Positions 3,048 through 5,081 of a DNA stretch of 5,081 nucleotides are shown here, piece after piece. Source of the DNA: Anaerolineaceae bacterium (GTDB taxonomy: Bacteria > Chloroflexota > Anaerolineae > Anaerolineales > Anaerolineaceae); assembly GCA_003542325.1 (NCBI GenBank), contig DPKV01000206.1, positions 1 to 5,081 on the forward strand, in the 5' to 3' direction. Under the pieces are notes generated by a model. It was not told the DNA's origin, ran no database searches, and worked only from the letters and a program-made list of their open reading frames with translations. The first letter of the stretch is position 1, and each line of letters opens with the position of its first letter. Both the position numbers and the translations under genes were made by a program.

Positions 3048-3077
3048 GTAATTGCGAAGGCTCAGAACTTAGAAAAG

Positions 3078-3129
3078 CCTTCCCCTCGAGGAGCGTAGCG
3101 ACGAAGCCCCCGAAGGGGATAGGGGAAGG
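3078..3129. repeat. Palindromic intergenic repeat with outer 9-bp arms; shares a core with the right-hand repeat family
   Basis: CCTTCCCCT at 3078-3086 is the exact reverse complement of AGGGGAAGG at 3121-3129. Inside, CCCC and GGGG (3108-3111 and 3115-3118) can close a small hairpin over GAA. The left inner part, CGAGGAGCGTAGCGACGAAGC (3087-3106 plus neighbouring base), matches the interior of the CATTGCGAG...GACGAAGCAATCT family found at 4106-4655, although the outer ends differ. Immediately to the right, GCAC and GTGC around GGA (3132-3142) form another small hairpin. No coding potential is apparent. Confidence 0.75.
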
Positions 3130-3221
3130 TGGCACGGAGTGCTGTAACAAGGTGGAACACCCACAGGGCGCTGGATGAGGGGTATTGAATTTATTCTTAA
3201 GCAGATAATTGGAATTTCCTG

Positions 3222-4067: not shown

Positions 4068-4097
4068 CTACTTCCGTTGATCGCTTCGCTGTGACAA
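4068..4097 (-). repeat. Degenerate, internally deleted copy of the structured repeat (copy A0)
   Basis: Read on the minus strand, this copy retains both ends of the repeat but lacks the hairpin interior. CTACTTCCGTTGATCGCTTCG (4068-4088) matches the reverse complement of copy A's right end at 19 of 21 positions by eye. TGACAA (4092-4097) matches the other end. It stands head to head with copy A. The junction TGACAAGATATTTTGTCA (4092-4109) is palindromic except for one G-T pair. Confidence 0.65.
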
Positions 4098-4105
4098 GAT
4101 ATTTT

Positions 4106-4158
4106 GTCATTGCGAGTGAGCACCCGCAGGGTGCGACGAAGCAATCTACGGAAGTAGA
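4106..4158 (+). repeat. Structured repeat copy A (GTCATTGCGAG ... GACGAAGCAATCT)
   Basis: The conserved left end GTCATTGCGAG (4106-4116) and right end GACGAAGCAATCT (4135-4147) include pairing arms ATTGC and GCAAT. Between them GCACCC (4120-4125) pairs perfectly with GGGTGC (4129-4134) over a GCA loop. The tail ACGGAAGTAGAT (4148-4159) is also shared with copy C (GCGGAAGTGGAT). It lies about 55 bases upstream of the GIY-YIG start codon. Confidence 0.85.
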
Positions 4159-4213
4159 TGCGTAGAGGTTTATCTTCCGTCAGAACATGAAATAATGAGA
4201 TAGGTGGAAAAAG

Positions 4214-4504
4214 ATGCACGAATACTACGTCTACATCATGACAAATATCAATCATACGGTTCTGTATACTGGCGTGACGAACGATCTGTACCGTCGGGTT
4301 GAGCAACATCGTGCGGGTGAAGGTGGGAGGTTTACATCACGTTATTACCTAAAGAAGCTTGTTTATTATGAGACGCATGAGTACGTGGAGGATGCCATTC
4401 AGAGGGAGAAACAGATCAAGGGTGGGTCGCGGCAGAAGAAGATGGATTTGGTGAATGATCTGAATCCGGCTTGGAAGGATCTGTTTGAAGAGATGCAAGG
4501 TTGA
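4214..4504 (+). CDS. GIY-YIG nuclease domain protein (small single-domain type, YhbQ/UPF0213-like)
   Basis: This 96-residue protein is essentially one GIY-YIG catalytic domain. The two signature strands appear as YVYIMTN (5-11) and LYTGVTNDLYRRVEQH (17-32), with YTG at 18-20 standing for YIG. The expected catalytic Arg is 27 or 28, the conserved His is 32, and the metal-binding Glu is 65 in AIQREKQIKGGSRQKK (61-76). NPAWKDL (84-90) is the usual C-terminal signature of this subfamily, so all key residues look intact. Such proteins cut or nick DNA. Natural targets of the stand-alone bacterial type are poorly known; related domains occur in homing endonucleases, UvrC and structure-selective nucleases. 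ATG 4214 follows AGGTGG (4202-4207) at a six-base spacing. The gene stands alone and is flanked on both sides by inverted doublets of a hairpin repeat. Its DNA is visibly less GC-rich than the permease region, compatible with transfer (inference). Confidence 0.92.
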   Translation: MHEYYVYIMTNINHTVLYTGVTNDLYRRVEQHRAGEGGRFTSRYYLKKLVYYETHEYVEDAIQREKQIKGGSRQKKMDLVNDLNPAWKDLFEEMQG

Positions 4505-4555
4505 AGAGATATTGGTTTGATTCAATTTGAGCAGATCAATAAGTAAAAAATAGAA

Positions 4556-4598
4556 TCCGTAGGTTGCTTCGTCCCCTGGCGGGGACTCGCAATGACAA
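4556..4598 (-). repeat. Structured repeat copy B (opposite orientation to C)
   Basis: On the minus strand this reads TTGTCATTGCGAG, then a hairpin, then GACGAAGCAACCT and CGGA. The hairpin is GTCCCC (4571-4576) paired with GGGGAC (4581-4586) over TGGC, quite different in sequence from copies A and C but still perfectly paired. It differs from the consensus by a T-to-C change in GCAATC (GCAACC). Its left end abuts copy C in an inverted arrangement. Confidence 0.85.
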
Positions 4599-4605
4599 AA
4601 TTATC

Positions 4606-4658
4606 TTGTCATTGCGAGAAGCTGCAAAGCAGCGACGAAGCAATCTGCGGAAGTGGAT
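4606..4658 (+). repeat. Structured repeat copy C
   Basis: The left end TTGTCATTGCGAG (4606-4618) and right end GACGAAGCAATCT (4634-4646) are identical to those of copy A where they overlap. The interior hairpin is GCTGC (4621-4625) and GCAGC (4629-4633) around AAA. The tail GCGGAAGTGGAT (4647-4658) matches copy A's tail at 10 of 12 bases. Together with copy B it forms a doublet with a 13-base perfect inverted junction, CTCGCAATGACAA (4586-4598) and TTGTCATTGCGAG, separated by seven bases. Confidence 0.85.
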
Positions 4659-4813: not shown

Positions 4814-5023
4814 TTGACCGAAAAACGCGCCCAACGTCTGTCCGTCTGCCTGGGGGAGATGGCGGACCGCATCCTTAACCGCTTCGATGACGCCGAAGTT
4901 GTAGGGTGGGTTGCCAACCCACCAAATCTGCTTTCATCCTTCTGGATCGTCAAGCCACCACCTGCAGTGGCTCCCCGCAATGACGACAGCCTGATACCTG
5001 ATCACCTAATACCTGATCCCTGA
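4814..5023 (+). CDS. Short frame of 69 residues, probably the 5' remnant of a gene overrun by repeats
   Basis: Starting at TTG 4814 behind a good ribosome binding site, the first 28 or so residues (MTEKRAQRLSVCLGEMADRI, then LNRFDDAE) look like a genuine amphipathic, charged N-terminus. From about residue 30 the frame runs through noncoding-type repeats. GWVANPP is the translation of a 19-bp palindrome (4905-4923), IVKPPPAVAPRNDD comes from a degenerate minus-strand copy of the hairpin repeat (4942-4984), and SLIPDHLIPDP comes from a heptamer array (4991-5026). I do not recognise the N-terminal part. Most likely a longer gene was broken by repeat insertion or deletion and the frame now ends by chance at 5021-5023. 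A small real protein with a repeat-derived tail is possible but less likely. Confidence 0.35.
   Translation: MTEKRAQRLSVCLGEMADRILNRFDDAEVVGWVANPPNLLSSFWIVKPPPAVAPRNDDSLIPDHLIPDP
4905..4923. repeat. 19-bp perfect palindrome with single-base centre
   Basis: GGTGGGTTG and CAACCCACC pair perfectly around C4914. This is a compact element distinct from the CATTGCGAG family. It lies exactly where the frame starting at 4814 stops looking like protein-coding DNA. Confidence 0.7.
4942..4984 (-). repeat. Degenerate structured repeat copy D
   Basis: On the minus strand it begins GTCATTGCG (4976-4984 on plus as CGCAATGAC). A 6-bp hairpin follows, AGCCAC (4953-4958) with GTGGCT (4967-4972) over eight bases, then GACGA (4947-4951) and a decayed tail. 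It has the order of parts of copies A-C, but the GCAATCT end is no longer clear. Confidence 0.55.
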
Positions 5024-5026
5024 TCC
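4991..5026. repeat. Short heptamer tandem array
   Basis: Five consecutive 7-base units, CTGATAC, CTGATCA, (C) CTAATAC, CTGATCC, CTGATCC, follow copy D directly, with one extra C at 5005. The array is imperfect and noncoding in character, although the frame from 4814 reads into it. Confidence 0.6.
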
Positions 5027-5081
5027 AACTATTCACCATCCCCCATTCATGAAATCCCTGAAGCGTAGCGGAACGCCCGTA
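5024..5081. other. Right edge of window, no gene supported
   Basis: The last 58 bases continue the repeat-type DNA. An ATG at 5049 opens a frame to the window edge (11 codons) but has no ribosome binding site. GAAGCGTAGCGGA (5061-5073) resembles the GGAGCGTAGCGACGA core at 3090-3104, so this is more likely the beginning of another repeat than of a gene. Confidence 0.4.

Follow-up and report, generated by a model that had tools for sequence, protein, structure and literature searches.

A GIY-YIG nuclease gene between inverted TGTC-tagged hairpin repeats in an Anaerolineaceae bacterium: a REPIN-like unit and its predicted cognate enzyme

What could a small nuclease gene be doing between copies of a repeat that folds into hairpins? 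The question is raised by a 5,081-nucleotide stretch of an Anaerolineaceae genome (contig DPKV01000206.1, assembly GCA_003542325.1), referred to below as the window, in which a GIY-YIG nuclease gene is enclosed by two inverted repeats of one family. A previous reading of these letters, made without database searches (hereafter the sequence-only reading), proposed that the nuclease may act on or spread the repeats, filling the role that REP-associated tyrosine transposases (RAYTs) have for repetitive extragenic palindromic (REP) sequences and their inverted doublets (REPINs). We consider it probable that the locus is a REPIN-like unit built around the GIY-YIG gene, and we predict that the product of this gene recognises and nicks the hairpins of the unit, likely aiding their spread. 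The elements concerned are the following.

4068..4096, minus strand: repeat A0, shortened and degenerate, probably the right end of a preceding unit.
4105..4597: gene-bearing unit, composed of two inverted TGTC-tagged hairpin repeats with their tags outward and the nuclease gene between them.
4105..4152, plus strand: repeat A, with a TGTC tag, an ATTGC/GCAAT stem, a GAG...CGAA internal loop, a variable apical hairpin and the tail CTACGGA.
4214..4504, plus strand: GIY-YIG nuclease gene of the NPxWxDL clade, intact, 96 residues, single domain (PF01541, E 4.7e-16).
4556..4597, minus strand: repeat B, of the family of A, with four of the five stem pairs, GCAAC replacing GCAAT.
4607..4651, plus strand: repeat C, of the family of A, with the outer stem present, probably the left end of the next unit.
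About 4943..4985, minus strand: repeat D, decayed, with a CGTC tag, GTCATTGCGGG with one mismatch, and the 3' half of the stem lost.

The presence of an intact 96-residue gene among inverted repeats of the same family is confirmed. The ends of the unit at A and B are complementary at 17 of 17 positions (4101-4117 with 4585-4601). The doublets A0-A and B-C, described earlier as bracketing the gene, are also present: pairing between A0 and A extends along 21 nt at 90%, and the linkers from tag to tag measure about 8-10 bp in A0-A and about 10 bp in B-C. Since A0 and C are located just outside A-gene-B and face it tag to tag, the natural unit is instead A-gene-B, and the doublets correspond to joints of neighbouring units. 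Repeat D is possibly the right end of the unit that starts with C. The window repeats share a fold composed of a 5-bp stem (4 bp in B), an internal loop and a separate apical hairpin. When folded as single-stranded DNA and compared with shuffled sequences, A reached -9.0 kcal/mol (z -1.8) and B a z of -2.6; the free energy of C was no better than that of its shuffles (z -0.1). A described RNA family was rejected as a candidate, as nothing in the window matched Rfam at gathering score.

The repeat family is dispersed in the source genome, a draft of 1.84 Mb in 257 contigs, for which the closest named proteins come from Chloroflexota/Anaerolineaceae. A whole-genome search, as the sequence-only reading had suggested, recovered 11 exact copies of GTCATTGCGAG versus 0 of the reversed word, and 45 versus 9 when one mismatch was allowed. 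All four GIY-YIG matches of this genome lie between two repeat copies that are exact or differ at one position, the naive probability that four of four random genes each have one copy within 350 bp being about 8e-8; uvrC was not found in this draft, which is 66.6% complete. Pairs without a gene, in the same outward layout as A-gene-B, occur on contigs C10, C92 and C96. Three stem types coexist in the genome (ATTGC/GCAAT, ATCGC/GCGAT and ACTGC/GCAGT), and the window-type repeats follow the order A[TC][TC]GC, mostly GAG, an apical hairpin whose length varies widely, mostly CGAA or CGTG, and GC[AG][AG]T. At locus L007 (C19, 1-1160), tandem units of about 153 bp each combine an ATCGC hairpin with an ACTGC hairpin in inverted orientation, with linkers of about 9-10 bp, and a nuclease gene lies within one of them. 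At L004 (C233:1082-1303), one of the four nuclease genes is interrupted by an in-frame stop and lies between two repeats, as a decaying gene-bearing unit.

The window nuclease carries a C-terminal NPxWxDL motif. On reading the proteins, its clade was defined by this motif, and it is to this clade that flanking by hairpins belongs. Loci were taken from the best 30 matches each of the phylum and order searches, and from a scan of named species with a 25-member clade alignment (A1), in which at least 585 stretches matched; of the 581 that were confirmed, the 80 best were retained. The resulting set comprises 131 clade loci (80 from named species, 26 from the order and 25 from the phylum), with gene ends read from the frames. 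Four others with broken or short frames (L004, L035, L042 and L072) were excluded, the first three of which are nevertheless flanked by hairpins on both sides, with one of the two at L042 lying 400 bp away. The hairpin finder required five perfect stem pairs, a GTC tag and a C after the stem.

A (C/T)GTC hairpin was found within 350 bp of the gene at 118 of the 131 loci, and on both sides at 88. The proportions were 75/80 for the best named-species loci (60 on both sides), 21/26 for the order (12 on both sides) and 22/25 for the phylum (17 on both sides). Away from the genes, the same 80 loci gave 11 hairpin matches in 115,059 bases, and dinucleotide-shuffled flanks gave a mean of 4.0/131. Among control genes, a hairpin within 350 bp was present at 2 of 30 loci of Y1 (RAYT-type) transposases, none of them flanked on both sides, at 1 of 17 other GIY-YIG loci lacking NPxWxDL (UPF0213/YhbQ-type, a set that includes L049 with a long frame) and at none of four uvrC loci. 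Association with tagged hairpin repeats is a general property of the NPxWxDL nuclease clade and beyond chance. Nuclease homologues thus have such hairpins close by much more frequently than the control genes do, and the proposal of REPIN-like units having a nuclease as partner, and not a tyrosine transposase, is supported by these counts.

The record titles of the 80 named-species loci include Pseudomonadota, Deltaproteobacteria, Chloroflexi, Planctomycetes, Bipolaricaulota/Acetothermia and Patescibacteria groups, and further Nitrospinae, Nitrospirae, Omnitrophus and UBP14. Stems vary from locus to locus (ATTGC, ATTCC, ATTTC, ATTAC, ATCCC, ATCCT, ATGCT and others); the GTC tag and the post-stem C, both demanded by the finder, recur. 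In three genomes, nuclease copies lie about 500-700 bp apart, as if tandem-duplicated as units (G104:C1 576893/577542, G031:C20 875/1581 and G058:C11 13562/14070).

Two other settings for the gene were considered and rejected. It is not chiefly a plasmid gene, as the matches among 72,556 plasmid records number 35, of which 34 are typed as non-mobilizable, nor chiefly a phage gene, as those among 50,697 phage records number 13, the eight listed at 38-45% identity. Eight plasmid loci, chosen from 12 listed of the 35 records, come from Planktothrix, Spirosoma, Neorhizobium, Rhizobium, Sinorhizobium, Novosphingobium, Aeromonas and Photobacterium; seven have a hairpin, and that of Novosphingobium has none. 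On plasmid p1 of Planktothrix agardhii (L292), the nuclease has C/TGTC hairpins on both sides, and its neighbours are an MmeI-type restriction gene on one side and the DISARM gene drmA on the other.

Do these sequences fold as hairpins in general? At 49 of the 80 named-species loci, a hairpin with 10-nt spacing is present, mainly of the form CGTC-ATTCCCGC-GNAN-GCGGGAAT-CCAG, with an 8-bp stem and a 4-nt loop. Since the finder demands five perfect pairs, only the three inner pairs provide an unbiased test of folding. These were formed in 111 of 111 cells, among 37 distinct sequences, and 16 cells had changed on both sides versus 3.8 in shuffles, with none of 500 shuffles as high. Two coarser covariation measures, the pairs with a double change and the number of pair types, were not above shuffles. 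In the window the tail reads CTA or CTG; for its own genome the forms are CC or CT, and at most of the 80 named-species loci the tail is CCA.

The stem sequence tracks one residue of the nuclease. In the window protein, the turn concerned reads K69-G70-G71-S72-R73. In its AlphaFold2 model (pLDDT, the predicted local distance difference test, 93.7; pTM, the predicted template modelling score, 0.86), residues 71-72 form the turn between the helix bearing the conserved Glu65 and the next helix; from the GIY-YIG family, we take Glu65 to be a metal ligand. Most clade members have Trp71 and the window protein has Gly71. Trp71 loci without any stem ending in GC account for 89 of the 131, and loci with another residue (21 Gly and one each of Ser, Asn and Asp) and GC-ending stems only for 24, so that residue and stem match at 113 of 113 unmixed loci, with no opposite case. 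Outside this count are 13 loci without a hairpin and five with mixed stems (three Trp, two Gly). The seven labelled plasmid loci, examined later, all have Trp71 and no GC stem. Residue 71 could therefore constitute a putative specificity switch for the stem of the repeat, as far as sequences can tell.

A related enzyme is found beside similar repeats in Neisseria. The N. gonorrhoeae homologue (L150) has 44% identity over 86 residues with the window nuclease, and its locus contains eight hairpins within 350 bp, of the CGTC-ATTCC type (dRS3-type repeats). L150 is apparently the protein called Ssn. By Z score, the window model is structurally nearer to HIGLE, Slx1 and UPF0213 than to I-TevI; NCBI family models gave no match to the window protein at E 0.01.

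Repeat abundance also varies with the presence of the nuclease. Among 151 genomes of the phylum, GTCATTGCGAG reaches at least 10 copies in 19, with a maximum of 172 in one relative, and GTCATTCCGAG in 14, without overlap between the two sets; the window protein has a match at E 1e-8 in 31, several of the weak ones being YhbQ-like. In the order (121 genomes), the median is 12.5 copies with a nuclease at E 1e-15 (n=48) versus 1 without (n=73), and none of 5000 within-family label shuffles reached the observed difference. Repeats are thus not equally abundant in relatives lacking the nuclease. Correspondingly, the nuclease is present in 28 of the 49 order genomes with at least 10 copies versus 20 of the 72 with fewer (Fisher p 0.0014).

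The units also occur without a gene and differ between relatives. Twenty gene-less examples from three relatives span 74-121 bp; their ends read YGTCATTGCGAG...CTCGCAATGACR, and inspection by eye showed no spacer common to them. Between two congeners, two intact units of G078 are without an intact counterpart at the matching place of G017, and one unit of G017 is absent from G078; these insertion differences indicate that units come and go.

As related enzymes in many bacterial groups adjoin matching repeats, the window enzyme likely recognises and nicks its own hairpins, and there is a strong case that it is their cognate enzyme, which would supply the partner so far lacking for a widespread class of bacterial repeats. 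Recognition is strongly suggested by the homology to the Neisseria nuclease and by the co-variation of residue and stem. Nicking is a prediction drawn from homology and from what is reported of the Ssn family. The nuclease would recognise the single-stranded form of the hairpins and could nick it where DNA is single-stranded, at the replication fork or during transformation. Repair from another copy would then duplicate the unit, without covalent strand transfer, and such repair-coupled copying may help the repeats and the nuclease gene to persist and spread. We infer both the single-stranded substrate and the cut-then-repair route.

Several observations weigh against this interpretation. With a tree built without the columns of the residue-71 turn, the residue needs six changes and the stem four; independent residue-stem pairs number four on the best tree and one on supported branches, and the sign test is not significant. 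With a single independent pair on supported branches, shared history may underlie the match. Furthermore, three Trp71 loci (L023, L059 and L177) carry some ATTGC stems; nearby stems at these loci differ (ATTGC with ACCCC, ATTAC or ATGCC), and their enzymes could possibly have two targets.

The link between abundance and nuclease is also incomplete. No clade nuclease was detected in 21 of the 49 order genomes with at least 10 copies. In G005, which is assembled as one contig and has 70 copies, PF01541 matches UvrC and a YhbQ-like protein, and in G084 (89 copies) and G112 (36 copies) it matches UvrC alone. The GTCATTGCGAG-rich genomes without clade nuclease also include G078, G118, G062, G011, G028 and G088. 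Among the matches that were read, a non-Trp clade nuclease was present in 6 of the 19 GTCATTGC-rich genomes (G000, G026, G055, G080, G104 and G110), and 7 of the 14 GTCATTCC-rich genomes have no match at E 1e-8, the other seven having one. In four genomes without clade nuclease, an exact GCAATC partner within the stretch inspected is kept in 19 of 30 copies, and in 7 of 7 in G112, following no clear rule. As to the congeners, G078 has no clade nuclease and G017 has the Trp type only, so neither holds a non-Trp enzyme; of the three empty places, one has a shorter allele (G017) that may be a decayed unit, and neither a target duplication nor exact boundaries could be defined at these places, the intergenic DNA being too diverged. 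Repeat-rich genomes in which the enzyme was not detected, G005 included, show that the repeats can persist without its continued presence. The earlier idea that the nuclease mobilises the repeats is therefore unproven, and these genomes and the hydrolytic GIY-YIG chemistry count against a simple RAYT-like role.

The dependence could be the reverse. The repeats may spread by other means and be cut by a homing-type nuclease, repair then inserting its gene between the hairpins, in which case spread of the nuclease would depend on the repeats. We judge this landing-site scenario unlikely, even if it deserves attention: no other repeat-flanked enzyme was found (Y1 genes flanked on both sides, 0/30; other transposase families were not searched), and the copy number of the repeat rises with the nuclease within families. 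Moreover, no Y1 match was obtained in 8 of the 19 repeat-rich genomes. The same eight genomes count against Y1 transposases as the movers of the repeats, with an incidental nuclease neighbourhood. This RAYT-driven account is very improbable, despite the Y1 matches in the 11 other repeat-rich genomes, with six such matches in the source genome, given that just 2 of 30 Y1 loci have a hairpin nearby and that the tag is C/TGTC, not the GTAG of RAYT-linked REPs (PMC3733652).

A role for the host is conceivable as well, the nuclease cutting incoming single-stranded DNA at repeats and gating its uptake, as Ssn reportedly does in Neisseria, with repeat spread as a by-product of host selection. The resemblance to the nuclease beside dRS3-type repeats in N. 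gonorrhoeae, at 44% identity, and the neighbours of the Planktothrix unit (an MmeI-type gene and the DISARM gene drmA) speak for it; nevertheless it appears improbable to us, as genes present several times per genome, in one case with an in-frame stop, resemble selfish elements more than a conserved host function. Chance, or an intergenic hot spot that collects repeats and small genes, is scarcely credible. Repeats are indeed common and mostly intergenic, but the same-phylum controls (Y1, uvrC and other GIY-YIG genes) are unflanked, shuffled flanks gave 4/131 versus 118/131, and the stem sequence tracks the residue of the nuclease. The REPIN-like unit with a hairpin-nicking nuclease is hence the reading we prefer.

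The remainder of the window holds ordinary neighbours and other intergenic elements. Positions 3-587 encode the C-terminal part of a glycoside hydrolase of family 3, and 636-2210 an L-lactate permease. At 4895-5040, a composite element consists of a GGGTTGCCAACCC palindrome, the decayed repeat D and then CCTGATACCTGATC tandem words; words like TAGGTATCAGG adjoin ATCGC-type repeats at L014 and L017 of the same genome, and GGTTGGCAACCCA is also found at L017. A second inverted element lies at 3070-3140 (CCTTCCCCTCGAGG...AGGGGAAGGTGGCACGGAGTGC), and words resembling it occur directly upstream of the repeat pair in L010, on contig C96 of the same genome.

The tie between repeat and nuclease spans about ten phylum-level groups. 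The co-variation of stem and residue makes both the upkeep or movement of the repeats and the reading of hairpins testable with short DNA oligonucleotides, and sequence-specific single-strand nucleases with swappable specificity would be useful tools.

How does this locus compare with known systems? The window repeat belongs, as a variant, to the CGTC-tagged REP superfamily, which was reported in 2013 from five phyla and stated to be without a dedicated transposase (Di Nocera et al. 2013, PMC3733652). That superfamily, which includes Neisseria dRS3 and Rickettsia RPE-6/RPE-4, is defined by an unpaired tag, a stem of 8-9 bp starting with AT and a loop of 4-5 nt; a CCA tail is present in most members, not all, and copies are numerous and often in inverted pairs (PMC3733652). 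Likewise, A, B and C begin with TGTC-ATTGC, that is, an unpaired C/TGTC tag and an AT stem start, and the window family is multicopy, arranged in inverted pairs and followed by a short C-rich tail. It differs by a 5-bp stem with an internal loop and by the nuclease gene inside units; its tail in the window is CTA/CTG, where CCA is the commoner form. It is tempting to regard NPxWxDL nucleases as the missing mobilisers of CGTC-tagged REPs in all phyla, a second and chemically distinct counterpart of the RAYTs, through nick-and-repair copying in which W71 or G71 would set the stem, in a lock-and-key co-evolution; we put this forward tentatively, and on balance doubt it.

As in REPIN/RAYT systems, the window family forms dispersed, tagged, inverted two-hairpin units, some of which bracket an enzyme gene; unlike them, the enzyme is a GIY-YIG hydrolase and not of the HUH/Y1 type, the tag is TGTC/CGTC and not GTAG, and genomes hold several gene copies. 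With free-standing GIY-YIG homing endonucleases (I-TevI, Seg), the protein shares the catalytic fold, whereas its gene is flanked by multicopy hairpin targets, with no intron and no separate DNA-binding domain. UPF0213/YhbQ-type proteins differ from it in NPxWxDL and in the repeat neighbourhood. Compared with classical insertion sequences and miniature inverted-repeat transposable elements, the inverted ends are clear, and a target-site duplication is not definable in the diverged empty sites. Among open-licence PubMed Central papers, none was found on this nuclease-repeat system, nor, by title, on the repeat family of the repeat word.

The nearest relative is Ssn, reportedly a family of site-specific single-stranded GIY-YIG nucleases acting on Neisseria NTS repeats, described in 2025. 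If this is so, a GIY-YIG nuclease on this class of repeats is already published, and the partner is not of a new kind, contrary to the sequence-only reading. The window protein resembles Ssn in being a single-domain GIY-YIG protein of about 96 residues with a multicopy repeat at its gene and across the genome; it has G71 instead of W71, and its cutting activity is a prediction. The Neisseria hairpins have an 8-bp stem and a GNAN loop; in those of the window, the ATTGC stem has 5 bp, the GAG/CGAA internal loop is asymmetric and the apical hairpin varies. By its sequence, the window enzyme falls in a sub-branch of Ssn-type nucleases that carries Gly for Trp at residue 71. Collectively, the locus belongs to a known or nearly known kind, to which it adds a variant hairpin, a family-wide tie to CGTC-tagged REPs and the residue-71 correlation.
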